Origin: a virus
DNA: 24,309 nucleotides
IMG/VR virus record: IMGVR_UViG_3300033997_000435
Location: 1-24,309 of that record
Direction: 5' to 3' (one strand)
Shown piece by piece: positions 1,896-19,617 of the stretch. Each line of letters begins with the position of its first letter. The stretch's first letter is position 1. Below the pieces are notes generated by a model. It ran no database searches, had not been told where the DNA came from, and worked only from the letters and a program-made list of their open reading frames with translations. Position numbers and translations under genes: made by a program.

Positions 1896-1931
1896 CGGCT
1901 TGCCCGTCAGGGCGGTCGGTGCCAAAATTGC

Positions 1932-1968: not shown

Positions 1969-2169
1969 ATGAGTGGGGATAATTTGATGGGTGATCACGT
2001 TGATCAGGTGATCGATCAGCGCGGATCAAGTAGGATGGGAGAATTGCATAAGGTGCTGGCCGCCTTGCTCGATTACATCGGTCCCGATGTGTGTGATCAG
2101 GTGGTGAGCGAGGGCATAGAAAAGGCCGCCAGTATCGCGGCAGAGATGATCAATAATCCGGCTAGATGA
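1969..2169 (+). CDS. SOS-controlled small protein, candidate antirepressor (66 aa)
   Basis: The ATG at 1969 is chosen for the strong ribosome site GGGAGGG just upstream; longer frames would run through the LexA box. The protein is small, acidic and mostly helical, with no known domain. Its core LDYIGPDVCDQVV resembles AEYAGPDVADEVV in the 62-aa protein at 4578, and the similarity extends on both sides, so the two look like paralogs. A small DNA-damage-induced protein in a prophage whose repressor cannot cleave itself suggests an antirepressor, in the manner of Tum of phage 186 or Coi of P1. That role is inferred; a toxin or replication modulator is also possible. Confidence 0.75.
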   Translation: MSGDNLMGDHVDQVIDQRGSSRMGELHKVLAALLDYIGPDVCDQVVSEGIEKAASIAAEMINNPAR

Positions 2170-3987: not shown

Positions 3988-4368
3988 TTACGGCATTTTT
4001 GGCGGTGCTCTGACCGGCGTTCCGCAAGCCTCGGCTGCGTCGTAGGCGTACCGGACGGCCAGCTCGGCCAGCCCCGGCGGCAGTGCCAGAAACGCCTGTA
4101 GGATAGGGTCATCCCCGCGCCGTCCAACCGGCATCAGCATGTCGGCGATCTCGATGCCGATCGCCTGGCAGATCCGCCTGGCCGCATGAAGCGGCATGAA
4201 CGTCTGTGTGCGTGGGGATAGCCAGCGCCGCAGGGATGGTTCCGGGATGCCTGTGGCATCGGATACATCGTCCAGGGAGAGCCCTCGGCGGGTGAGTACG
4301 CCGGCGAGGTTCTGTTTGACCGCGAGCACATATGCCCGGTCATCATCATCGATATAGGCGCGGCTCAT
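3988..4368 (-). CDS. HTH regulator (XRE/Cro-CI type), 126 aa
   Basis: Residues about 13-78 form a Cro/CI-type helix-turn-helix: VKQNLAGVLTRRGLSLDDVSDATGIPEPSLRRWLS, with GLSLDDVSDATG as the core, followed by helices up to IGIEIADMLM. The rest, up to residue 126, is a short helical tail of unknown role. AAAAGGA lies before the ATG on the minus strand. The gene is divergent from the 62-aa gene at 4578, with a palindrome at 4454-4471 between them, so it likely controls that gene and itself. Pairs of a transcription factor and a neighbouring small protein that inactivates the repressor are known on plasmid-like phages; this pair has the same layout. Whether it activates or represses cannot be told. 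Confidence 0.8.
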   Translation of the reverse strand: MSRAYIDDDDRAYVLAVKQNLAGVLTRRGLSLDDVSDATGIPEPSLRRWLSPRTQTFMPLHAARRICQAIGIEIADMLMPVGRRGDDPILQAFLALPPGLAELAVRYAYDAAEACGTPVRAPPKMP

Positions 4369-4453: not shown

Positions 4454-4471
4454 ACTGTCAGAAATGACAGT
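4454..4471. promoter_or_regulatory. Palindromic operator between divergent genes
   Basis: ACTGTCA-GAAA-TGACAGT is a perfect 7-base inverted repeat. Its core also fits CTGT-N8-ACAG, so it could be a second LexA box, although the centre is not the usual alternating AT. A partial copy, TTTCTGTCA, lies near 4423-4431 in the other orientation. It could be the site for the 126-aa regulator. Confidence 0.6.
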
Positions 4472-4577: not shown

Positions 4578-4766
4578 ATGACAATATGTAATGGCGGGAT
4601 TTCGACTGGCCAAGTCTGGGAACTGATAGATGAGCTGGCAGAGTACGCGGGGCCTGATGTGGCTGATGAGGTCGTGCTGGCACTGATCAGGCGCATCAAG
4701 GCGCTCTCAGATGGACAGAAGGGCCACCTGGCGGTGACCCTTCATGCAGTCAAGGTGTGGCCTTGA
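4578..4766 (+). CDS. Small protein, paralog of the SOS-controlled protein (62 aa)
   Basis: The ATG follows a weak GGGAT site inside the inverted repeat. The acidic, helical product holds LAEYAGPDVADEVV, which lines up with LDYIGPDVCDQVV of the 66-aa protein at 1969. Its C-terminus (KGHLAVTLHAVKVWP) differs. No domain is recognised. It is divergent from the HTH regulator at 3988. If the 66-aa paralog inactivates the phage repressor, this gene would give a second route to the same outcome under other control. The last 17 bases overlap a 39-aa gene on the other strand. Confidence 0.65.
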   Translation: MTICNGGISTGQVWELIDELAEYAGPDVADEVVLALIRRIKALSDGQKGHLAVTLHAVKVWP

Positions 4767-5197: not shown

Positions 5198-5238
5198 AAA
5201 TATGAATACAATATAAAAATAATACCAAAATAATATTA
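5198..5238. repeat. AT-rich 11-base-spaced repeats between parA and the RHH gene
   Basis: Four 8-base units at an exact 11-base spacing: AAATATGA (5198), CAATATAA (5209), TAATACCA (5220), TAATATTA (5231). Spacers are A-rich triplets. The last unit includes the parA stop codon. Unit size and one-turn spacing suit an RHH protein. Likely part of the par centromere or an operator. Confidence 0.65.
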
Positions 5239-5862
5239 AATCAAGAGTTCATCGATCTCGGCGATCAGCTCGGCCACCTCTTTCCCGGCTTCGCCGTGGC
5301 GGGTGCTGGTACGCTCTGTGACCCCTCTCCCCTCCAGCATGGCAGTCGGGTAGTCGGCACGGCGAGACAGGCGTGAGCGCATCATGGCCATGTGCGGCTG
5401 CTGCGCCAACTGCTCCGCAATCGCCTGATAGTTGCGCCGCGCCGGGTTTGTCCTGGTCATCAGTACGTGGGCGGTGATATGCCGGCGGGCGGCCTGGCTG
5501 ATCTCCCTCACGACATCGTGCATCTTGGCCAGCCCAATCTGTTCTGATAGGTCGTCGTTGCTGGGGCAGATCAGCAGATCGGCGCAGGCGATGGCGGCCC
5601 GGGTGCGGGTGGAGTCGAAGCCCCCGCAGTCGATCAGCACCAGGCCCTCCTGGTCGTCCTCCAACAACTGCCGCAGGTGCTTGTCATCGCGGGGCACCAC
5701 GACGTTCCATTGGTGCGCCTGCTCGCGCTGCTGGTTGATGATGCTGATGCCCTGGTGTGCATCCAGGTCGATGATCATGGCTGGGGACATAGCCCCCGCC
5801 AGTTGGGTGATGGTGGTGGTTTTACCCACCCCGCCCTTGTTGTGTGCCACTGCGATTTTCAT
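5236..5862 (-). CDS. parA: ParA-type partition ATPase
   Basis: The 208-aa product opens with a deviant Walker A motif, KGGVGKTTT (residues 9-17), then IIDLDAHQG and VLIDCGG, all typical of short ParA/MinD ATPases that lack an N-terminal HTH (type Ib). It would bind ATP, coat the nucleoid and move plasmid copies apart with the RHH partner encoded next. GGGAGG precedes the ATG. Because it has no DNA-binding domain, autoregulation should fall to the RHH protein, consistent with the array at 5879-5919 just before the gene. The presence of par genes supports a plasmid prophage rather than a chromosomal one. Confidence 0.92.
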   Translation of the reverse strand: MKIAVAHNKGGVGKTTTITQLAGAMSPAMIIDLDAHQGISIINQQREQAHQWNVVVPRDDKHLRQLLEDDQEGLVLIDCGGFDSTRTRAAIACADLLICPSNDDLSEQIGLAKMHDVVREISQAARRHITAHVLMTRTNPARRNYQAIAEQLAQQPHMAMMRSRLSRRADYPTAMLEGRGVTERTSTRHGEAGKEVAELIAEIDELLI

Positions 5863-5984: not shown

Positions 5985-6362
5985 TTACACCCAGATGTTG
6001 CGCCCGCCTGTCTTGATGCGCACCACCACCACGCCGGGGCGGCCCCCGCGAATGGGGGAGCGTTGCTTGATGGTGTCCTGGTAGTCTGCCGACAGTAAGG
6101 CCAGCAGCAGGCAGAGGGCGCGGCTGGCGATGACGCCGAGGGAGAAGGCGCGGGCGATCATGTTGGCCTGGGTTTTGGCGCCCAGCTTTTGCCGGATGGA
6201 TGTCTCCGCCCTCGCTCGCTCGATGCTTTTCATCCCGGTGATCTGCTCTATCTCGCCGTTGGTGGCGCCCTCAGCCAGCAACAGCAGGGTGCCAAGCTCG
6301 CGGGCGGTGAGATCGTGCCCAGGAACGGCTTTGAAATTAGGCCCGCACAGGCTCATGGTCAT
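5985..6362 (-). CDS. Stand-alone LuxR-type (GerE) HTH protein
   Basis: Residues about 18-76 form a LuxR C-terminal HTH: LTARELGTLLLLAEGATNGE, then IEQITGMKSIERARAETSIR, then QKLGAKTQANMIARAF. No signal-binding domain precedes it. The tail after the HTH has a hydrophobic stretch (ALCLLLALLSA) and a basic end. The first ATG (6362) is used; a second at 6356 has better spacing to AAGGGAG. It is the last gene of the leftward operon downstream of cI and overlaps the 99-aa gene. It may regulate a phage promoter, or compete with host or phage LuxR proteins for DNA. Family assignment is firm, role unknown. Confidence 0.8.
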   Translation of the reverse strand: MTMSLCGPNFKAVPGHDLTARELGTLLLLAEGATNGEIEQITGMKSIERARAETSIRQKLGAKTQANMIARAFSLGVIASRALCLLLALLSADYQDTIKQRSPIRGGRPGVVVVRIKTGGRNIWV

Positions 6363-6636: not shown

Positions 6637-6686
6637 GGTCGCAAAATCCCGGCTGTGTGTTACTGTTTGTAGTTTGTGCAGGTGTG

Positions 6687-6720: not shown

Positions 6721-7347
6721 TTAAAGGTCAGTGATTTTGCAACGGTATGTGCCGCTGATATTCAGGGCTGCCACCTGCTCATCGGTCAGTTCCTCACTTT
6801 GGTGGCCGTCCGTGATCTTCCATTTGCCACTGGTGAGGGGGGTGATCCAGCGGATCAGGGTTTTCCCGCCCCCGGCGTCAATGGCAAACAGGCCGCCATC
6901 ACTGGGCATCCCTTCGCTGCGCTCAAAGAATAGGATGTCACCTTTCTTGTGAGGCCCCATATCCGAGCTGATGGGGTGCGCGAACGTTTCCCCCAGCAGC
7001 ACATTTCGGGCGCTGCCGCCGGCGCGGCTCAAGATCTGCTTGCCTATCTGCAGGCGCGTCTCGAACTCCCGGGTGCTGATCTGGTCGTCTATCAAACCCA
7101 TCAGGTAGGCCGCACTGACGTTGAACTCGGGCGCGATCACCTTATCCATCAGGTTTATCCACCTCGCCACGACATCGAGGCGCTGCCCGCGTTCGTAGCA
7201 GGAGTAAAGCGCCCGGGTGAGGCCCAAGACTTCTGCCGCTTTGTTGGAGTAGGAATAACCGGCGTCCATTCTCGATTTTGAGATGCGATGACCTATCAGC
7301 TGTGCGAGCAGCTTATCGTCATCGGCGGTCGGTTGAATGTGGTTCAT
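6721..7347 (-). CDS. cI: CI-like phage repressor with degenerate S24 domain
   Basis: The start ATG 7347 is chosen because upstream DNA carries the operators; the longer frame to 7434 would run through them. Residues about 13-85 hold an XRE-type HTH (ISKSRMDAGYSYSNKAAEVL, then LGLTRALYSCYERGQRLD). The C-terminus follows the S24/LexA fold: ISSDMGPHKKGDILFF and GGKTLIRWI. In cleavable repressors these read GDSM and VKR. Here Asp129 takes the catalytic Ser position and Ile165 the Lys position, and the only nearby Ala-Gly (109-110) is too close. So the fold is kept, probably for dimer contacts, but self-cleavage looks lost. It keeps the prophage silent and faces cro. Confidence 0.85.
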   Translation of the reverse strand: MNHIQPTADDDKLLAQLIGHRISKSRMDAGYSYSNKAAEVLGLTRALYSCYERGQRLDVVARWINLMDKVIAPEFNVSAAYLMGLIDDQISTREFETRLQIGKQILSRAGGSARNVLLGETFAHPISSDMGPHKKGDILFFERSEGMPSDGGLFAIDAGGGKTLIRWITPLTSGKWKITDGHQSEELTDEQVAALNISGTYRCKITDL

Positions 7348-7384
7348 GTTCGTCTCAAGTGGGGACTGTGTTCCACATAGTGTA

Positions 7385-7428
7385 GCACTGACAGTGCCAT
7401 AGTACATAGATTGAAGCACAGCTAGTGC
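7385..7428. promoter_or_regulatory. Repressor operators between cI and cro
   Basis: Two sites fit GCAC-N5-GTGC: GCACTGACAGTGC (7385-7397), a perfect palindrome, and GCACAGCTAGTGC (7416-7428), 31 bases apart centre to centre. On the minus strand TACACT (7384-7379) beside the first site may be the -10 of the cI promoter. A third, weaker CCACATAGTGT lies at 7373-7383 with different spacing. Confidence 0.75.
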
Positions 7429-7443
7429 CATCACGTTTCTCCG

Positions 7444-7468
7444 TGCTATTATCTTCTACAGTTAGTAG
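7444..7468 (+). promoter_or_regulatory. Early rightward promoter (PR-like)
   Basis: TGCTATTAT (7444-7452) is an extended -10 element; no good -35 is present, as is usual with extended -10 promoters. The start point should lie near 7459, inside TCTACAGTTAGTAG (7455-7468), which recurs exactly at 18721-18734 in the late control region. Confidence 0.55.
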
Positions 7469-7704: not shown

Positions 7705-8108
7705 TCATCGCTATCGTTTCCCCCTCCACCGCCACCCAAGAGGCATACATCCACAAGGTGATGGCGTCCTCTGCCCCCACCTCCCGATTCTCAGTGCAGG
7801 GCCGCCGGGCGTATGACCGGCCATCGGTATTGCTGGGGGCGCTGCGCCGCGATGCCCATGCCACGGCGGTGACGATCCTGGTGCCGGTGACGACGGTGGA
7901 AGAAGTGGACGCCATCCGCCTGATGGGCGGTTTCATCGGCCACGTATATGGCCCCGCCCACCCCAGCATCAAGATCAAAAAGTCCGACTTGATCCTGGCC
8001 AATCCGACCGCCGTCAGGCCGAAGCCCTGCCAGGTGCCACCCCATGAGCTGCATGCCGAGCTGCGCACCCGCCTGCTGGCCCAGCGAGATCGCATCGGGA
8101 GGGGCTGA
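7701..8108 (+). CDS. Early phage protein of unknown function (135 aa)
   Basis: It starts in an ATGA overlap with cro. The N-terminus MIIAIVSPSTATQEA and the later VTILVPVTTVEEVDAIRLMG suggest alternating strands and helices. This loosely recalls phage deoxynucleotide monophosphate kinases, in which a strand, an acidic EAxAIR-like helix and a Gly-Gly turn are conserved, but the P-loop that family needs is absent. I treat the likeness as weak. Position in the early operon suggests a role in replication or host takeover. Confidence 0.65.
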   Translation: MIIAIVSPSTATQEAYIHKVMASSAPTSRFSVQGRRAYDRPSVLLGALRRDAHATAVTILVPVTTVEEVDAIRLMGGFIGHVYGPAHPSIKIKKSDLILANPTAVRPKPCQVPPHELHAELRTRLLAQRDRIGRG

Positions 8109-8335
8109 TGGTCATTGACTACTACCGCGCCGACCCGGCTGACATCGCCAAGGAGATCACCTGCCAGTTAAAGGCCGGAAAACTCGTCTACATGGTCAAG
8201 CGCGGCGAGATCACCCGCGACCGCCTGCAGATCGAAATTGCCAACCACCCCGAGCAGGAACGGGAGTGTTTGCGGGCCTGGTGTAACCACTATCGCCGGC
8301 TGGCGGCACTCCAGGGCGAGGCTCCACGGAAATGA
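8108..8335 (+). CDS. Early phage protein of unknown function (75 aa)
   Basis: It overlaps the preceding stop by one base (TGATG), so translation is coupled. The basic, soluble, mostly helical product (PADIAKEITCQLKAGKLVYM, then HPEQERECLRAWCNHYRRLA) has two Cys in its last third, but not in a metal-binding pattern. No domain is recognised. Confidence 0.65.
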   Translation: MVIDYYRADPADIAKEITCQLKAGKLVYMVKRGEITRDRLQIEIANHPEQERECLRAWCNHYRRLAALQGEAPRK

Positions 8336-8745
8336 TCCTCTCCGACGCGCTCGACGCCTGGGCTCGGTGGGTCTATAGCGGCCATCTGCCGCCCCAGTCC
8401 GTGGGCCAGACCGGCAAGATCATGGAGATGCTGACGCTCGGCGTGACCGGCCCCAGCCACAACGGCGCGGCGAGAACGACGACTTCATCCGACCTCATCG
8501 AGGCGAGCATCGAGGCCGCCGTGATGCGCCTGGCGGCGTCTGGCCCCCTGGGGGAGAAGCGAGCCACGGTGCTGCGAGCCGAATACCTGTTTCCCGTTCG
8601 TGATGCCGCCCGCGCCCAGGAGGTGCGGGCCATCGCGCTCAATATCCCGCTGCGCACCTACAAGCGCAACCTGGCTGCCGCCCGGGATTTCGTTCTGGCT
8701 GCGTTGGAGGCGCAGCCATCCATTCCACGCATTGTAAGAGGGTGA
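8332..8745 (+). CDS. Possible Q-like late antiterminator (137 aa)
   Basis: ATGA overlap with the previous gene. The N-terminus has ALDAWARWVYSG, like the conserved start of phage Q proteins of the 82/N15 type. The C-terminus (EVRAIALNIPLRTYKRNLAA) reads as a sigma-region-4-like HTH found in Q and ArpU-type regulators. Residues about 50-100 are helical. The window has a terminator directly before the holin (18861-18890), the site where a Q protein would be needed, and no better Q candidate. The early-operon position is also suitable. Assignment is by pattern only; another HTH regulator is possible. Confidence 0.5.
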   Translation: MILSDALDAWARWVYSGHLPPQSVGQTGKIMEMLTLGVTGPSHNGAARTTTSSDLIEASIEAAVMRLAASGPLGEKRATVLRAEYLFPVRDAARAQEVRAIALNIPLRTYKRNLAAARDFVLAALEAQPSIPRIVRG

Positions 8746-9605: not shown

Positions 9606-10807
9606 CCGCCCTCCCCAAGTCCATCACCGCCAGGCTGACCGACGCCGAGATCCGGCGCCAGTCTGCCAACCCGTTGTGCCGCGAGCTGAAAGACCCGCGT
9701 TATCCGATCCTGCTGCGCTACCACAAGGCCCGGGATCGGGCCTCTTATCTCTATGTCGGGCATCACAATGGCCGCCCCCGCTGGCGCAAGCTGGCCACCT
9801 GGCCGGTCACGCCGCCCGATGCGTTTTTCAAGGAGCTGCCGCGCCTGCTCGCCTCGGTCGCGGCCACCCCGGACGCGCACGAGAAGATCACCGAGTGGGT
9901 CACGTTCGGCCAGATGCTCCGCTGGTATCTGGAGCGGGCAAAGGGGAATCGCCGTTTGTCCAAGTCGCGCCGGGATGGCATCGCCAGTCAGATCCGCCGC
10001 CAGTTGCTCCCAATCTGGGGCGATCTGCCGCTGGCGCTGAGCCGCCGCGCCATTGATGAAACGGTGATGGGCTGGCAAGCCCGTTACAACCTGGAGACGG
10101 TGCGAGGCGGATATAGCCTGTTGCGCTCTGTCATCAAGCTGGCCCTGACCCTGACCCTGATCGATGCCGACCCGCTGCTGGGCTTGCGCTTTTGCGAGAT
10201 AGTGCCGACCCGCTCCCGCATCACGGCGGGGCGCTTGCGCCCCAGCCAGGTTGGCGCCGTGCTGACAGCCCTCCCTGATGCCCGAATGCCTGCCAGGGTG
10301 CTCTGCCTGCTGATGCTGCTGCATGGCACCCGGATCGGGGAAACCCGCCGCGCCGCCTGGCGCGACTTCGACCTGACCGACGACGTGGCGATGTGGCACA
10401 TCCCGGGCAGTACCACCAAAAACGGCTGTGATCACGCCCTGCCGCTGACCCCCGTCGCGGTGGCGCTGCTGGCCTCCTATCGCCGCTGGCAGCAAGCCGC
10501 TGGCTATCAGGGGGTGTACCTGTTCCCCCATGCTGCCGGCCAATTGTCTGCCCGCGAGGCGACCCGCTGGGTGTCTGCCGTGTCTGGCGGCCTGTGGCGA
10601 GCGCACGACCTGCGCAAACTGGCCCGCACTCGTTGGACAGAGCAGAGAACCGATCACCACATCGGGGAGGCCATGCTCAACCACAGCCCCGGCAAGCTGG
10701 CCAAGACCTACATCCAGAGCGACCTGGTGCCGCTGATGCGAGCTGCCCTGGTGACCTATCACGACTGGCTGTCGACTAGCAGTAACGGCGCAATGATATT
10801 AACATAA
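9602..10807 (+). CDS. Tyrosine recombinase, catalytic residues intact
   Basis: A 401-aa tyrosine recombinase. The N-terminal half (TFGQMLRWYLERAKGNRRLS onward) is a SAM-like core-binding domain. The catalytic domain has Arg244 (HGTRIGE), His335 and Arg338 (AHDLRKLAR), His361 (MLNHSPGKLA) and Tyr370 (KTYIQ), so it should be active. It ends the rightward early operon in an ATGA overlap, an unusual place for a lambda-type integrase, and its stop codon lies in the palindrome array 10791-10841. In a par-bearing phage-plasmid it may resolve multimers, as Cre does in P1, or integrate into a host site. No attP could be fixed. Confidence 0.88.
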   Translation: MTALPKSITARLTDAEIRRQSANPLCRELKDPRYPILLRYHKARDRASYLYVGHHNGRPRWRKLATWPVTPPDAFFKELPRLLASVAATPDAHEKITEWVTFGQMLRWYLERAKGNRRLSKSRRDGIASQIRRQLLPIWGDLPLALSRRAIDETVMGWQARYNLETVRGGYSLLRSVIKLALTLTLIDADPLLGLRFCEIVPTRSRITAGRLRPSQVGAVLTALPDARMPARVLCLLMLLHGTRIGETRRAAWRDFDLTDDVAMWHIPGSTTKNGCDHALPLTPVAVALLASYRRWQQAAGYQGVYLFPHAAGQLSAREATRWVSAVSGGLWRAHDLRKLARTRWTEQRTDHHIGEAMLNHSPGKLAKTYIQSDLVPLMRAALVTYHDWLSTSSNGAMILT

Positions 10808-10841
10808 TATCATTGTGATATTATTTTAATATTAAAATGAT
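10791..10841. repeat. Distal 11-base-spaced array at the end of the recombinase gene
   Basis: Units TGATATTA (10794), TAATATCA (10805), TGATATTA (10816) and TAATATTA (10827) alternate in orientation at exact 11-base spacing. The first two lie in an inverted repeat with 11-base arms (10791-10801 and 10805-10815) around ACA, and 10823-10838 is a 16-base perfect palindrome. Same unit and spacing as the arrays beside parA. It could be a remote centromere or a recombination or operator site. Confidence 0.7.
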
Positions 10842-10847
10842 TGACGG

Positions 10848-10866
10848 TTAGGCGGAACCCGCCTAA
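10848..10866. promoter_or_regulatory. Perfect inverted repeat just before a start codon
   Basis: TTAGGCGG and CCGCCTAA form 8-base arms around AAC, one base before ATG 10868. In DNA it may be an operator; in mRNA it would bury the initiation region. AGGCGGAAC recurs in the hairpin at 15591-15614. Confidence 0.55.
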
Positions 10867-10867
10867 T

Positions 10868-11230
10868 ATGACTCTCAACGGTGGCACACAGAAAGCCACT
10901 CGAATTCAGAGGCGGCTAGTTGATGCCACCGATGGAAACGAGATGAGACTGAGTGATGTAGCGACCATCAAGACCCACTATCCCGAGGCTGATTTCTGGC
11001 TAGTGCGTCGAGGCTCTTTAAAAACCTGCGGCCAGCCCACCCGGGAATACAACCCGGAACACATCGGCATCAAGGTCACCCGAACGGACATCCTCCTGCC
11101 GGATTACCTCTACTACTGCATGATGTGGCTTCACCAGTCGAAACGATGGGAGGCGCTGGCCACGGGCACATTGAGCTTGGTCAATATCAAAGTCTCTGAC
11201 GTTCGAACCATCGAGCTGTCACCGAGATAA
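10868..11230 (+). CDS. HsdS-like single-domain protein (120 aa)
   Basis: The ATG after the inverted repeat is used; an upstream TTG is unlikely. The protein looks like one target-recognition domain of a type I restriction specificity subunit: MRLSDVATIK at the start, the middle HIGIKVTRTDILLPDYLYYC, and TLSLVNIKVSDVRTIELS near the end. A complete HsdS has two such domains and partner HsdM and HsdR; none is nearby. Half-size HsdS-like proteins are found in phages and could interfere with host restriction by exchanging subunits, but that is inferred. It sits alone after a regulatory palindrome cluster, which suggests its own promoter. Confidence 0.65.
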   Translation: MTLNGGTQKATRIQRRLVDATDGNEMRLSDVATIKTHYPEADFWLVRRGSLKTCGQPTREYNPEHIGIKVTRTDILLPDYLYYCMMWLHQSKRWEALATGTLSLVNIKVSDVRTIELSPR

Positions 11231-11233
11231 ACA

Positions 11234-11253
11234 CCGGGGGCGCAAGCCCCCGG
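11234..11253 (+). terminator. GNRA-capped hairpin after the HsdS-like gene
   Basis: CCGGGGGC and GCCCCCGG form a perfect 8-base stem around GCAA, a stable GNRA tetraloop. No T tract follows, so it may protect an mRNA end or slow polymerase rather than terminate alone. Its core resembles the third origin hairpin (3548-3565). Confidence 0.5.
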
Positions 11254-11278
11254 CATATCGGCCAGCAAAGGAGAGAGT

Positions 11279-11692
11279 ATGAAAATCGAGTTACCAGGCA
11301 TCGCAGAGCAACAGCTGTTTGTGTTCAAGGCGGCGCAACAAGAAGCCCTGGCGGCCATGGCGAAGAACAGCGAGGCCAAGGTGCTGCAGGCTCCGCTGTC
11401 AGTGGATGAGGGCGCCTATCCGCGCACTCACCTGCTGCGTGAGCGGGAGGGTTGGGAGCCGCCACACAAGGATCTGGTCGCCGCCTACTTTCAGCAGTTC
11501 AAGGAGCTGTTCGGTTATGGCTCCGACAAGGAAATGGCCGATGCGCTGGGGTTGTCCAGTGATCGGCGGGTGCGGGAGTTCAAGCAAGGCAAGATCCCCG
11601 TCCCCTATGGGGTGTGGCGCCGCTTCCTGGTGATGACCGGTCGCGCCCCGCAAGATGTGATCCCCGTCCTCGGGGTGGTTGTTAACAAGTAA
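11279..11692 (+). CDS. Possible HTH phage regulator (137 aa)
   Basis: AAAGGAGAGAGT before the ATG is an excellent ribosome site. The C-terminal half is HTH-like: FGYGSDKEMADALGLSSDRR, then VREFKQGKIPVPYGVWRRFL, as in XRE regulators, but the N-terminal half is unassigned. It precedes a row of accessory genes in the same direction and could regulate them. Family unknown. Confidence 0.7.
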   Translation: MKIELPGIAEQQLFVFKAAQQEALAAMAKNSEAKVLQAPLSVDEGAYPRTHLLREREGWEPPHKDLVAAYFQQFKELFGYGSDKEMADALGLSSDRRVREFKQGKIPVPYGVWRRFLVMTGRAPQDVIPVLGVVVNK

Positions 11693-11707
11693 CGAGAGAG
11701 TACGCAA

Positions 11708-12574
11708 ATGAACACGACTAATCGCACCGTCGGAACCATTGAAGAAGCCCTGATGCTTGCCCAGCCCCATGAGCTGCTGGCCGCCTTTGTCCCGAGTTTT
11801 AACGACCTCACCGGCCAGCTGGATGAGCTGTCCCAGGAGCGGGATGAGCTGGAGATTCAAGTCGCTGCGGCCGCGACTACCCAAGCCGCCCTGCTGGCCC
11901 GCATTGCAGACCTGGAGCAAGAGAACGAGCGTTGCTGTGAGGCGGCTCGCAAGGCTGAAAAGATTGGCAACCAGGCGGGGGCACTGCTGGTTGAAAAGAC
12001 CCGCCTGCAGGAGCAGCTCAACCAGTTGCAGCAGGTGATTGCCACCTATGGTGGCGTGAATGGCATCGACAAGCTCAAGGAGCAGAACAAGCGCCTGAAG
12101 AGTGGCAACGCCGAGAAGGACGCCCGGATCAGTCAACTGGAGCGGGATAACAGCAAGGCCCGCCACGATCTGACCACCGCCCAGCGTCAGAGCATTGAGG
12201 CTCACGCCAAGATCGACTTGCTCCAGCGTCAGCTTGCCCACGACACCGGCAGCGGCCTGTATCACAACGGAGAGCACCACCTGATCATCTGGCCCCAAAA
12301 GACAAAATTCCAGCGCCAGGACGGCTCAACCTTTGAAGCTCGCTCCCTGCTCTATATGCACCAGTCCGGCCGGGGTGGCTTGTTCACCTACAGCGAAGAG
12401 GGCGGGACCGTGTTTGCCACCTCTCCGAAACCGGGATTGAAGCCGTCCAAGGAGGTGCAGGAGTTCGCCCATAACTGGCTGTTCAAGGTCAATGCCCTGC
12501 AGGATGGCATCGTGCGCGAGTCCGACATGGTGCCGGTCGATTTCAACGGCTATGCCAGTGAACAAGCAGCGTGA
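11708..12574 (+). CDS. Coiled-coil protein of unknown function (288 aa)
   Basis: Residues about 35-180 are strongly coiled-coil (LDELSQERDELEIQVAAA; LLQRQLAH near the end). The C-terminal 100 residues form a compact mixed domain with HHLIIWPQ, SGRGGLFTYSEEGGTVF and a conserved-looking NWLFKVNAL. No known family. ACGAGAGAGT precedes the start. Bases 11709-11726, from the second base of the start codon, are identical to 2342-2359 at the start of repA, so the candidate repA antisense RNA could also pair here. Confidence 0.8.
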   Translation: MNTTNRTVGTIEEALMLAQPHELLAAFVPSFNDLTGQLDELSQERDELEIQVAAAATTQAALLARIADLEQENERCCEAARKAEKIGNQAGALLVEKTRLQEQLNQLQQVIATYGGVNGIDKLKEQNKRLKSGNAEKDARISQLERDNSKARHDLTTAQRQSIEAHAKIDLLQRQLAHDTGSGLYHNGEHHLIIWPQKTKFQRQDGSTFEARSLLYMHQSGRGGLFTYSEEGGTVFATSPKPGLKPSKEVQEFAHNWLFKVNALQDGIVRESDMVPVDFNGYASEQAA

Positions 12575-12586
12575 TGGGGGTGTGAG

Positions 12587-13123
12587 ATGAGTTCAACAAC
12601 TGGTGACAAAATCGAGCGTGATAACTACCCGACCCCGGTTGAGGTGATCAATGCAATGCTGGCCAAGATGGGCTGGCGCCCCGGTGATACCTTCCTCGAA
12701 CCATGCCGTGGTGATGAGAGCCGTATTTATGATCGGGTGCCACTACCTGAATCACAAAAGGACTGGGCTGAGATCTCGATGGGCCGCGATTACCTGGCTC
12801 ATGACTTCGGCCGCCAGTTCGATGTGATCATCACCAATCCGCCGTTCAGCCTGACCGAGGAGTTTCTGGAAAAGAGCCTGGCCGAGCTGAAACCGGATGG
12901 CACCCTGATTTACCTGCAGCGGGTCAACTTCTTTGGCTCCATCAAGCGGGTGCCGTTCTTTGCCCGGATTGGCTTTCCGAACAAGACGCCGGTCATCATT
13001 CCGCGCCCACGCTTTGCGAAGGGTGGCACCGACTCTTGCGAATACGCCTGGATGGTATGGGATCGCGGCGGCCGCTTCGATGTGCCGAACGGCATCAGCC
13101 ACCTGTTAACTCGCGCTGCTTGA
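12587..13123 (+). CDS. Phage DNA adenine methyltransferase
   Basis: The 178-aa product has the order YPTP near residue 14, a SAM-binding motif I FLEPCRGDE (36-44) and the catalytic NPPF (84-87) of amino-methyltransferases acting on adenine N6. It is close to the short phage Dam-like enzymes. Motif I normally reads FLEPSAGxG; here RGDE replaces the glycine pattern, which may reflect a family variant. GGGGGTG precedes the ATG. It may shield phage DNA from host restriction or mark it for regulation. The recognition site cannot be told. Next to an HNH gene, it might pair with it. Confidence 0.78.
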   Translation: MSSTTGDKIERDNYPTPVEVINAMLAKMGWRPGDTFLEPCRGDESRIYDRVPLPESQKDWAEISMGRDYLAHDFGRQFDVIITNPPFSLTEEFLEKSLAELKPDGTLIYLQRVNFFGSIKRVPFFARIGFPNKTPVIIPRPRFAKGGTDSCEYAWMVWDRGGRFDVPNGISHLLTRAA

Positions 13124-13135
13124 TGGGGTTATGTG

Positions 13136-13369
13136 ATGAAAAACAAACTCACTGACCTGAATGATCACCTCTTTGCCCAGCTTGAGCGCCTCGGCGATGA
13201 GAGCCTTGATTCGGAGAAGCTCAAGGATGAGATCGCCAGAAGCAAGGCCATCACCGCCGTATCGAGCCAGATCGTCAACAACGCTCGCCTAGCCCTCGAT
13301 GCGCAGATCGCTGTGCGAGACCTGCCGCTGGGTAACCGGCTGCCATCGATGCTGGAGGCAAAGCCATGA
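13136..13369 (+). CDS. Small helical protein of unknown function (77 aa)
   Basis: Helical, charged product: LTDLNDHLFAQLERLGDESL, then an IARSKAITAVSSQIVNNARL stretch common in small phage proteins that bind other proteins or DNA. The ATG 13136 follows GATGGGG; GTG 13133 is the alternative. The stop overlaps the next start by four bases. Unknown function. Confidence 0.7.
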   Translation: MKNKLTDLNDHLFAQLERLGDESLDSEKLKDEIARSKAITAVSSQIVNNARLALDAQIAVRDLPLGNRLPSMLEAKP

Positions 13370-14175
13370 GCCGTTTTGTCTACACATCCGAGCAGCTCAA
13401 CTTTCTGGCCGAGACCTTCAAAGAGTGCAGCCTGGAAGATACCACCTCGATGTTTAACTTCGTGTTCGGCACCGCCAAGACGCAGATCGAGATACGTGCC
13501 TGCATCAAGAACAACGGCTTTACCTGCGGCCGCCAGCCTGGCAACAGCAAGGGCCAGCTGCGGATGTTCAACCAGCCGCAACGGGAGTGGATTGAACGCA
13601 AGTACCAGGAGCTGCCTATCTGCGAGCTCACCCCGCTGTTCAATGCCGAGTTTGCTACCGCGATGACCGAGGCCCAGATCCGGGCCTTTATCAAGAATCA
13701 TGGCATCAAGAGCGGCCGCACCGGCCAGTTTGCCAAGGGGGCGGCCCCTTGGAATGCCGGTCTCAAGGGGTACGACCCGGGCGGGAGATCAGCCCTTACC
13801 CGCTTCAAGAAAGGGGGTGTGCCGGTTAACCATCGCCCGGTTGGCAGCGAGCGGGTCACTGTTGATGGGTATATCGAGGTCAAGGTCGCCGAGCCGGCCA
13901 GCTGGGATCTCAAACATCGGGTGGTATGGGAGCGCGAGCACGGCCCCATCCCGCCGAGTCATGTGATCTGGTTCTACGACAATGACCCGACCAATTGCGA
14001 GCCGGAAAACCTGATGCTGGTTACCCGGGCCGAACATGCGGTGGTCAGCAAGCTGGGGCTGCACCACGCCACCGGCGAGTTAAAGCAAACCACCAGGTTG
14101 ATCGCTGGCGTGGCCATGGCCAGAACCAGCAGCCGCAAGAAGCTGCGGGAGTCCCGCCGCCCCAGAGCCGCTTGA
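13366..14175 (+). CDS. HNH-type endonuclease-like protein with tandem N-terminal repeats
   Basis: The N-terminus has two diverged copies of one about 50-residue unit, with IRACIKNNGFTCGR and IRAFIKNHGIKSGR as their matching ends; these look like DNA-binding modules. The C-terminus follows HNH_3: KHRVVWEREHGPIP (His184), then VIWFYDNDPTNCEPENL. The usual VIHHxDGN has Trp202-Phe203 in place of the His pair, while the Asn and ENL are kept. Some phage relatives also lack the pair, so activity is uncertain. It directly follows the methyltransferase and a small gene, so a role in restriction or packaging is possible. Confidence 0.72.
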   Translation: MSRFVYTSEQLNFLAETFKECSLEDTTSMFNFVFGTAKTQIEIRACIKNNGFTCGRQPGNSKGQLRMFNQPQREWIERKYQELPICELTPLFNAEFATAMTEAQIRAFIKNHGIKSGRTGQFAKGAAPWNAGLKGYDPGGRSALTRFKKGGVPVNHRPVGSERVTVDGYIEVKVAEPASWDLKHRVVWEREHGPIPPSHVIWFYDNDPTNCEPENLMLVTRAEHAVVSKLGLHHATGELKQTTRLIAGVAMARTSSRKKLRESRRPRAA

Positions 14176-17756: not shown

Positions 17757-17775
17757 CCCGCATCAGCGGGCTTTC
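17755..17775. terminator. Bidirectional terminator between convergent genes
   Basis: AGCCCGC (17755-17761) and GCGGGCT (17766-17772) form a perfect stem with loop ATCA. A short T run follows rightward. It overlaps the preceding stop codon and lies two bases from the luxR stop. Confidence 0.75.
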
Positions 17776-17776
17776 A

Positions 17777-18514
17777 TTATCCCCGCCCGTAGTCGATGAC
17801 CCTGGACTCGCCGAGGGTGATGGGCACATCCCCCGCCTGCATTGCCCGCGCTACCGCCTGAGAGCGGGTCGCCGCCCCCAACTTCCGACAGGCCCGCTGC
17901 AGGTGGTAGTTCACCGTTCGCTCGGGCATCCCCATGATGACCCCGATGGCCTCCGAGCATTTCCCCTCGCTGACCCACCGCAAGCACTCAGCCTCTGCGC
18001 TGCTCAATGCTCGCTGGCTGGTCGGGCGACATAACCGCAGCACCGCCTCCAGTACGAACGGCACAACCATGGCCAGCTCCGCCGCCCGCTCGATGTAAAG
18101 CCCTGGCCGATGCGCCTCCGTGATAAAGCTCAGCACGCCGCCCTCCCCATCCGGCCCGTGCAGCGGGTAGGACACGCCCGCCCGCAGTCCGAATGCCGCC
18201 GCATCACTCATCACCATCATGGCCTCATCGCCCGCCCGCAGCGCATCCCAGCGGATGGGGGGCAGTTGCCGCTGGGCAGCGGCCACCACCGGGTCTATGG
18301 CGATCAGGTTAAGCCGGTTATACCGCTTGATCCATTCTGGCGGGCAGGAGTTGAAGATGCGGATGACGGGCCGCTGATGGCTCAGTGGGATGATGACGGC
18401 CATCCGGTAGTAGTCGAATCCGAGCCCCGTGACGATGCACTCGATGCGGGCCGCCAGCTCGTCAGGATGGCGGGCCTCTTTCAGGGTCAGCAGGTTTTCA
18501 AATAGGGTTGGCAT
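17777..18514 (-). CDS. luxR: Phage LuxR-type acyl-homoserine-lactone receptor
   Basis: The 245-aa product has both LuxR halves. The N-terminal signal domain keeps the key pocket residues by family numbering: Trp61, Tyr65, Asp74-Pro75, Trp89 and Gly113 (FGLRAGVSYPLHG). The C-terminal HTH (171-228) includes LSSAEAECLRWVSEGKCSEA and TVNYHLQRACRKLGAATRSQ. Such proteins bind an acyl-homoserine lactone, dimerise and act on DNA. LuxR receptors that bind the host's autoinducer are known from Aeromonas phages such as ARM81ld, as I recall. No LuxI synthase is here, so it would read a signal made by the host. CTGGAGC lies before the ATG. It is the only leftward gene between 7348 and the right edge. Confidence 0.92.
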   Translation of the reverse strand: MPTLFENLLTLKEARHPDELAARIECIVTGLGFDYYRMAVIIPLSHQRPVIRIFNSCPPEWIKRYNRLNLIAIDPVVAAAQRQLPPIRWDALRAGDEAMMVMSDAAAFGLRAGVSYPLHGPDGEGGVLSFITEAHRPGLYIERAAELAMVVPFVLEAVLRLCRPTSQRALSSAEAECLRWVSEGKCSEAIGVIMGMPERTVNYHLQRACRKLGAATRSQAVARAMQAGDVPITLGESRVIDYGRG

Positions 18515-18904
18515 CCATGAAGCTCCAGCAGGTTGGATGGAGCGCCGGCAACCTTAGACAGGCCTTAGATCCAAAGTTTGTTGACACACGGCGCCATGCG
18601 AGACGCGGCGCAGGTTACAGCCATTTTCGCGCCTTCACCAGAAAAGAGAAGGCAAGCCCCTGTTTTGCCATTACATTTCCGCTTTCTCCACGCAATGTAA
18701 TGGTGATCAATATCGCAAAATCTACAGTTAGTAGAAAAAAGTCACAGATAGTGTTGCGTTAAGTGGCACTCGGCTGTACCTTTCTCGTCATGGTGGTGAT
18801 TTTGCAGCTCGCCCCCATTGTTCAGACGTTTTCCGTTTATATCCCGTGTCATTTGTTTCAAAGGCCCATCTCTCCGATGGGCCTTTTTTTATGGCGTCCC
18901 CTCT
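18515..18904. promoter_or_regulatory. Non-coding late control region
   Basis: No gene is supported in these 390 bases. They hold a direct repeat CCTTAGA (18552-18558 and 18563-18569), an inverted repeat CCATTACAT and ATGTAATGG (18668-18676 and 18695-18703), and TCTACAGTTAGTAG (18721-18734), an exact copy of 7455-7468. TTGCGT (18754-18759) with TACCTT (18777-18782) at 17 bases is a weak candidate late promoter. The luxR promoter must lie here too. The layout recalls lambda pR'-tR': promoter, short leader, terminator, holin. Confidence 0.55.
18861..18890 (+). terminator. Terminator before the holin gene (tR'-like)
   Basis: AAGGCCCATC and GATGGGCCTT form a perfect 10-base stem around TCTCC, followed by five further T residues. 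It lies 15 bases before the holin start with no gene to end, so it probably blocks late transcription until an antiterminator acts. Confidence 0.9.
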
Positions 18905-19144
18905 ATGTTCGACCTGATCCACCGCTTCAAGGGCCAGTGCATCGCCTACGGTGGCGGGACGCTGGTGAGCCTCTGGTCCAAGGCTGTGGCCGCCGCTGAG
19001 AGCCTGCCTGAAATGACCATCCCGCAACTCACCATCAACGACCTGATCGGCATTGGCGGCCTGCTGGTCATCGCTGGCCGCCTGGCCTTCGACATCTTCG
19101 TCTACATCGACAAGCGCAAGCAGCGCAAACAGGGGGAGCAATGA
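18905..19144 (+). CDS. Holin (79 aa)
   Basis: A small protein with one clear membrane segment, LIGIGGLLVIAGRLAFDIFVYI (about residues 46-67), a weaker hydrophobic stretch near residue 17-30, and a basic end (DKRKQRKQGEQ), as in many holins. It would open the inner membrane at lysis. ATG 18905 is taken because the in-frame upstream extension crosses the terminator; the ribosome site is poor. It overlaps the endolysin start by four bases. Confidence 0.8.
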   Translation: MFDLIHRFKGQCIAYGGGTLVSLWSKAVAAAESLPEMTIPQLTINDLIGIGGLLVIAGRLAFDIFVYIDKRKQRKQGEQ

Positions 19145-19617
19145 AACTGCCGTGGATTGTTATTGCTGAGTCGCTAGTCGGCATCAAAGAGGTGCCCGGC
19201 CCGCAGCACAACCCCGAGATTCTGCAGATGTGGCGCGACATCAAGCGCGGCGGCATCAAGTCTGATGAGGTGCCTTGGTGCGCTGCATTTGTTGGTGCCT
19301 GCCTTGAGCGGGCTGGCATCCAGTCAACGCGCTTCGAAGGGGCTCGGTCTTATGCCGAGTGGGGTCAGAAGTTGTCCGCCCCGTCTCTTGGGTGCGTGGT
19401 GGTGTTTTCCCGAGATGGCGGTGGTCATGTCGGGTTTGTGGTGGGGCAGGACAAGACCGGCAATTTGCTCGTCCTTGGCGGCAATCAGTCTGATGCAGTA
19501 AACGTCCGTGCCTTCCCGCGCTCCAGGGTGACAGCGTACCGCTGGCCCGCTGGGGTTGATGTGCCGGCTGGCCCTCTGCCCGTTGGTGTTGGCTCTATGA
19601 CGAAAGGGGAATCTTGA
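19141..19617 (+). CDS. Endolysin, NlpC/P60 or CHAP-like peptidase
   Basis: The 158-aa product follows the TIGR02594-type cell-wall peptidase pattern: EVPWCAAFVGACL holds the catalytic Cys, GGGHVGFVVG the His, and VLGGNQSDAV the third polar residue. It would cut peptidoglycan peptide cross-links or amide bonds. No signal peptide, so it needs the holin. It starts in an ATGA overlap with holin. Confidence 0.9.
   Translation: MKLPWIVIAESLVGIKEVPGPQHNPEILQMWRDIKRGGIKSDEVPWCAAFVGACLERAGIQSTRFEGARSYAEWGQKLSAPSLGCVVVFSRDGGGHVGFVVGQDKTGNLLVLGGNQSDAVNVRAFPRSRVTAYRWPAGVDVPAGPLPVGVGSMTKGES

Follow-up and report, generated by a model that had tools for sequence, protein, structure and literature searches.

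The window, that is, the whole 24.3-kb IMG/VR virus record analysed here, carries a gene that, on good evidence, encodes a phage-borne receptor for acyl-homoserine lactones (AHLs) with no synthase of its own. We consider it probable, though by no means certain, that this receptor forms the sensor half of a split XRE/LuxR–smORF induction module that hears host AHL. Phage LuxR receptors are already known; the window adds a new clade and the split variant of the module.

17777–18514, minus strand: luxR, 245-aa LuxR-type AHL receptor (autoinducer domain, residues 18–157; helix-turn-helix (HTH) domain, residues 169–223)

On translation, the luxR reading frame was uninterrupted over 245 aa and ended exactly at 17777 and 18514 on the minus strand. 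Pfam assigned residues 18–157 to Autoind_bind (97.2 bits) and residues 169–223 to GerE (45.5 bits); the receptor is complete, with both the N-terminal autoinducer domain and the C-terminal LuxR-type HTH present. RhlR was the nearest solved relative by sequence, and RhlR bound to C4-HSL was the best PDB match of an AlphaFold model (mean pLDDT 84, built from nine sequences). The exact reading frame, the domains and the RhlR-like model thus bear out the LuxR-type receptor proposed in a preliminary description of this DNA. Its statement that no synthase lies nearby also held: a search for AHL synthases found none in the window or its relatives, a result that is weak alone because no control genome gave a match either; the annotated genes of the three complete relatives include none. 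By its substitution pattern, luxR is under purifying selection (pS 0.65 versus pN 0.17 in comparison with the A. veronii copy).

Seven characteristic residues (W61, Y65, D74, P75, W89, G113 and S129) are retained, the first six of which we take to be the equivalents of TraR W57, Y61, D70, P71, W85 and G113. However, Cys57 replaces the tyrosine present in TraR, LasR and RhlR (TraR Y53/LasR Y56), so that the earlier claim that all main ligand contacts are kept is true of the seven residues and not of this position. A broken pocket as the meaning of this exchange was ruled out, as AhyR and LuxR-ARM81ld carry the same cysteine. Since it is common to all Aeromonas receptors examined, the pocket is better described as AhyR-like than as canonical; as far as sequences tell, a tyrosine at this position is not required for LuxR-type membership in Aeromonas. 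The window LuxR is ~41% identical to AhyR overall. Of 19 positions compared in the pocket surroundings and the conserved core, 17 are the same in both proteins, and so is the recognition helix ERTVNYHL. Whereas AhyR, found in nearly all of 37 Aeromonas genomes, is chromosomal, lies beside the synthase gene ahyI and belongs to a separate clade, the window LuxR resides on a phage-plasmid. C4-HSL solubilises LuxR-ARM81ld (PMC6456758). In view of the AhyR-like pocket with the same cysteine, C4-HSL is the likely candidate ligand of the window LuxR as well.

The window contains tail fibre-like, ParA-like, putative repressor, integrase, CHAP endolysin and lambda-type terminase genes. These match complete circular plasmids of 38–39 kb with full virion gene sets, which indicates a phage-plasmid of Aeromonas, of which the window covers a fragment. 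Single-sequence scans of the genome and viral contigs with the receptor returned nothing, while an alignment query found matches. The family comprises the window and six relatives:

CP121813 (NZ_CP121813.1), A. veronii YOR 16989, complete circular plasmid
CP097210, A. caviae, complete circular plasmid
CP149128, A. salmonicida, complete circular plasmid
IMGVR_2876723161, IMGVR_2906289581 and IMGVR_3300034522, three IMG/VR contigs

CP095284 and CP140119 were rejected as relatives: they are ordinary conjugative plasmids with one common segment only. In every one of the seven members, luxR immediately precedes the lysis cassette in antisense orientation. Their receptors group together in one clade (support 100/99), apart from AhyR, a second core LuxR, the XRE-linked phage LuxR proteins (ARM81ld, PhAER-1, Apop) and another accessory clade, in a tree whose deep branch order is weakly supported.

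6721–7434, minus strand: putative CI-like repressor (PHROG transcriptional regulator/repressor; two immunity types in the family)
5236–5862, minus strand: ParA-like partition ATPase

Two immunity groups were distinguished, namely group A (window, CP121813, IMGVR_2876723161) and group B (CP097210, CP149128, IMGVR_2906289581, IMGVR_3300034522). Within group A, early genes are also shared, and the repressors and ParA proteins are 83% and 87% identical, respectively, as opposed to 30–32% and 46–50% between groups. LuxR identity likewise drops from 73% within to 57–62% between groups. The lysis, terminase and portal genes, by contrast, are 97–100% identical between the window and CP097210. The divergence of luxR thus parallels that of the repressor, early genes and xre rather than that of the adjoining lysis and terminase genes, indicating that the receptor evolves with the immunity module and not with its neighbours. 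Between parA and the repressor, the family carries a 125-aa protein (5985–6362, minus strand). It lacks an autoinducer domain; its LuxR-type HTH is weak and falls into the same PHROG as that of luxR. The gene at 8332–8745 resembles a Q-type antiterminator by eye, with no Pfam support.

17757–17776, unstranded: site of the missing companion ORF (present in six of seven members and as p38 in ARM81ld)

In six of the seven members, an ORF of 53–55 aa converges on luxR with overlapping stops. It is under strong purifying selection and 33–49% identical to ARM81ld p38 and counterparts, which occupy the same place (53–59 aa across both phage families). This pairing in two phage families suggests that the companion is a candidate LuxR modulator. 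The window gave no match to it; the ORF is deleted there. Such a loss would fit a luxR gene that is a passenger or a decaying, horizontally acquired leftover without a role in the element. We regard this explanation as very improbable, given the intact ORF, the purifying selection, the same location in all seven members and the co-divergence with the immunity module.

The preliminary description also placed luxR beside the late control region, which is correct, and considered that it might time lysis. The intergenic region and related sites elsewhere contain the following features:

18629–18653, unstranded: palindrome IR1, GCCTTC..GAAGGC, with one compensatory pair between groups
18668–18703, unstranded: palindrome IR2, CCATTACATT-N16-AATGTAATGG, arms co-varying between immunity groups
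18722–18734, unstranded: putative repressor operator CTACAGTTAGTAG, upstream of the late promoter
7456–7468, unstranded: putative repressor operator CTACAGTTAGTAG, upstream of the repressor
6660–6671, minus strand: putative repressor operator, variant CTACAAACAGTA, downstream of the repressor
18754–18782, plus strand: late-promoter-like TTGCGT-N17-TACCTT, divergent from luxR
18860–18890, plus strand: intrinsic terminator between late promoter and lysis genes, conserved in seven genomes
18908–19144, plus strand: small protein heading the lysis cassette, putative holin by position
19141–19617, plus strand: CHAP-domain endolysin

The core of the late-promoter-like element is invariant in seven genomes, although a sigma-70 consensus scan missed it. 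Rfam gave no match. The small protein at 18908–19144 is conserved, and a longer ORF there matches a PHROG of unknown function. This layout could be explained if AHL-bound LuxR controlled the divergent late promoter and its own gene through IR1 and IR2, so that late and lysis expression would track host density directly. The luxR–lysis synteny in seven of seven members agrees with this, as do the two palindromes themselves, which are absent elsewhere in the genomes and whose arms co-vary with the immunity group. Nevertheless, we consider it unlikely. Neither palindrome has lux-box geometry, the half-sites facing outwards or lying 20–25 bp apart; IR2 as a lux box was ruled out for its geometry and its outward-facing half-sites. 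Furthermore, the operator-like motif occurs in three copies per group A genome, two flanking the repressor gene and one by the late promoter. We read the motif flanking the repressor gene as the putative repressor operator, and its copy upstream of the late promoter suggests that late transcription is probably repressed directly by the repressor. Together with the conserved terminator, this putative operator would suffice for group-wise covariation and late control, and a separate role of LuxR in this region would be conceivable but superfluous. Lux-type boxes were found elsewhere, before two paralogous small ORFs, so that timing of lysis by mere adjacency to the lysis genes is poorly supported. 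One of these ORFs, smORF1, runs divergently from xre, whose product is homologous to the XRE protein needed by LuxR-ARM81ld/Apop.

3988–4368, minus strand: xre, homologue of the XRE partner of LuxR-ARM81ld/Apop
4455–4470, unstranded: box 1, lux-box-like palindrome CTGTCAGAAATGACAG, between xre and smORF1
4578–4766, plus strand: smORF1, 62 aa, divergent from xre, candidate antirepressor by position

XRE-ARM81ld matched the product of 3988–4368 with 34% identity over 105 aa (E = 2e-13). At E < 1e-5, homologues occurred in only 9 of 72,556 plasmids (eight from Aeromonas, one from Edwardsiella) and 5 of 50,697 phages (all from Aeromonas). Six of seven family members possess xre, the seventh being an incomplete contig that does not cover the region. 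The gene lies ~13.4 kb from luxR on the same (minus) strand, so that both do not form one operon, and relatives show the same split. The preliminary description's remark that luxR stands alone is therefore true locally, but the same genome encodes a homologue of the known LuxR partner. It had also held that the small protein through which the receptor would act was not known from the sequence; smORF1, however, takes the place that the antirepressor smORF holds in ARM81ld/Apop. It is situated 209 bp upstream of xre in counter-orientation, and six of the seven members have such an ORF at about this distance (~200 bp). In both groups, smORF1 shows more synonymous than non-synonymous change (pS > pN). 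Sequence homology to the ARM81ld antirepressor was rejected, as hhalign detected no relationship between smORF1 and the ARM81ld smORF, and the proposed role thus rests on position. In A. popoffii, the smORF has 156 nt and lies ~150 nt upstream of xre–luxR (PMC10432266); we found it in the A. popoffii locus as an ORF of 51 aa, to which smORF1 shows no recognisable similarity. Its promoter, PsmORF, needs XRE, LuxR and C4-HSL together, the smORF inactivates cI, and XRE-Apop activates its own operon (PMC10432266).

Box 1 has the exact form CTGTCA-N4-TGACAG once per genome, at the same site in all three group A genomes and nowhere else there; even the looser CTGTNAN4TNACAG is expected only 0.007 times per window. 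ARM81ld, PhAER-1, an A. hydrophila plasmid and Apop have a perfect lux box, CTGTAAT..ATTACAG, between xre and the proven smORF, as with box 1, and group B has TTGT(A/C)AGATCT(G/T)ACAA at the box 1 site. Read by eye, a –10-like TTATAG lies 17 bp beyond the palindrome in ARM81ld and PhAER-1; for box 1, no correctly spaced –10 element was identified. Related palindromes (CCGTCAGATCTGACAG, ATGTCAGATCTGACAG) precede xre in phage-plasmids without a phage luxR; the xre-bearing, luxR-less phage-plasmids are AP022265, CP054061, OR552796 and pHm21. Box 1 could thus also serve as a site for XRE or for the host's AhyR. If the palindrome were an XRE operator, LuxR would target other, possibly host genes, and the self-activation of XRE-Apop (PMC10432266) would fit, as would the luxR-less elements. 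We find this explanation quite doubtful, because in ARM81ld and group A the palindrome is of the lux-box type (CT-N12-AG), and because a second box of the same form (box 2, see below) lies away from xre. Of the luxR-less elements that combine xre with a lux-type palindrome, one carries the carbapenemase gene blaVCC-1 and one stems from Edwardsiella ictaluri. Some Aeromonas genomes have palindromes near ahyI from which box 1 deviates at one or two bases; there, a conserved CTGTNA..TGACAG stands behind ahyI and before a LysR-like gene (e.g., loci L024 and L028 near 667, AhyR on the plus strand). Its position behind ahyI ruled it out as the ahyI lux box, and its status as an AhyR site is putative.

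1900–1928, plus strand: promoter-like TTGCCC-N17-CAAAAT before smORF2, read by eye
1931–1947, unstranded: box 2, lux-box-like CCTGTATAAAAATACAG, overlapping the expected smORF2 transcription start
1969–2169, plus strand: smORF2, 66-aa paralogue of smORF1 with a GPDxxD motif

The two small proteins were related by hhalign (probability 84%, E = 7e-6). Box 2 (CCTGTA-N6-TACAG) was found at the same place in all six members covering the region, and the promoter-like element is kept in relatives with a spacing of 17–18 bp. Since box 2 overlaps the expected transcription start, it would more likely mediate repression of smORF2 than activation.

With a candidate XRE partner and a small ORF elsewhere in the same genome, we interpret the preferred split XRE/LuxR–smORF module as a rearranged version of the known circuit. 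Here luxR sits by the lysis genes, whereas xre and its divergent small ORF adjoin the genes for replication and partition; at this distance, the co-expression that the known operon provides is lost. AHL-bound LuxR, together with XRE acting in trans from afar, may bind the palindrome between xre and smORF1 and thereby raise expression of smORF1 (and xre). The smORF1 product would then disable the phage repressor, whose loss would start the lytic programme without DNA damage, so that the phage-plasmid would leave dormancy when hosts are crowded. The protein family, the pocket, the conservation, the homology and position of xre, the position of smORF1 and box 1 with its ARM81ld counterpart are observations of this analysis. 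Solubilisation by C4-HSL, the joint need for XRE, LuxR and AHL, and antirepressor action come from ARM81ld/Apop only (PMC6456758, PMC10432266). A more elaborate version appears rather improbable to us: LuxR and XRE, encoded on opposite sides of the genome, would act in trans on both paralogous small ORFs but in opposite directions (activating smORF1 through box 1, repressing smORF2 through box 2), the convergent 53–59 aa ORF would be a dedicated LuxR modulator, and luxR-less phage-plasmids with xre would use host AhyR via the same box.

The LuxR-ARM81ld/Apop module (PMC6456758, PMC9894119, PMC10432266) resembles the arrangement described here in that an Aeromonas phage is kept as a plasmid, in the LuxR pocket including the cysteine, in the XRE homologue, divergent small ORF and intervening lux-type palindrome, and in a nearby par gene and the convergent 53–59 aa ORF, which the window's family shares and the window itself has lost. 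In contrast, the window LuxR is only 35–40% identical and belongs to a separate clade, its gene is unlinked from xre and located in the late region, and the smORF is unrelated in sequence, with two paralogous small ORFs and two boxes. Moreover, the window's family consists of circular phage-plasmids with other virion types, whereas ARM81ld and Apop are linear protelomerase phages. VqmA-phage of VP882 is likewise a phage receptor for a host autoinducer that drives lysis, but belongs to another receptor family and has DPO as ligand (PMC6456758). Phaeobacter inhibens prophages also carry LuxR-type quorum sensing on a temperate phage (LuxI/LuxR), but make their own autoinducer, which favours lysogeny (PMC13345283). 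Lux-type boxes are absent from the 2023 paper's account of the module, and in a non-exhaustive literature search neither this family nor the split arrangement, lux boxes belonging to such modules, paired small ORFs or the convergent companion were found described. Quorum-sensing receptors are thus regular constituents of at least two unrelated Aeromonas phage-plasmid groups, and separation of the sensor from its partner does not prevent it from evolving along with the immunity genes. The candidate boxes and small proteins make joint LuxR/XRE action testable across natural variants, including elements that have xre and the palindrome but no luxR.

Several minor observations were made on other Aeromonas LuxR loci. 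A. veronii YOR 16989 harbours two phage-plasmids with one LuxR each, one of the window type (NZ_CP121813.1) and one of the ARM81ld type (NZ_CP121809.1), the latter record resembling a ~45-kb phage joined as an inverted dimer. Plasmid pO23AP3 of A. salmonicida (NZ_CP021657.1), which has conjugation genes, encodes an ARM81ld-clade LuxR at 7971–8741. The 4.9-Mb record NZ_AP026896.1 is labelled as a plasmid (pKAM479_3), yet contains chromosomal ahyR. A. popoffii has ten LuxR loci in total. Finally, an accessory clade of Aeromonas LuxR solos is located directly before hcp/vgrG-like genes of type VI secretion (loci L016, ~9965–13805, and L021, ~9905–13912).
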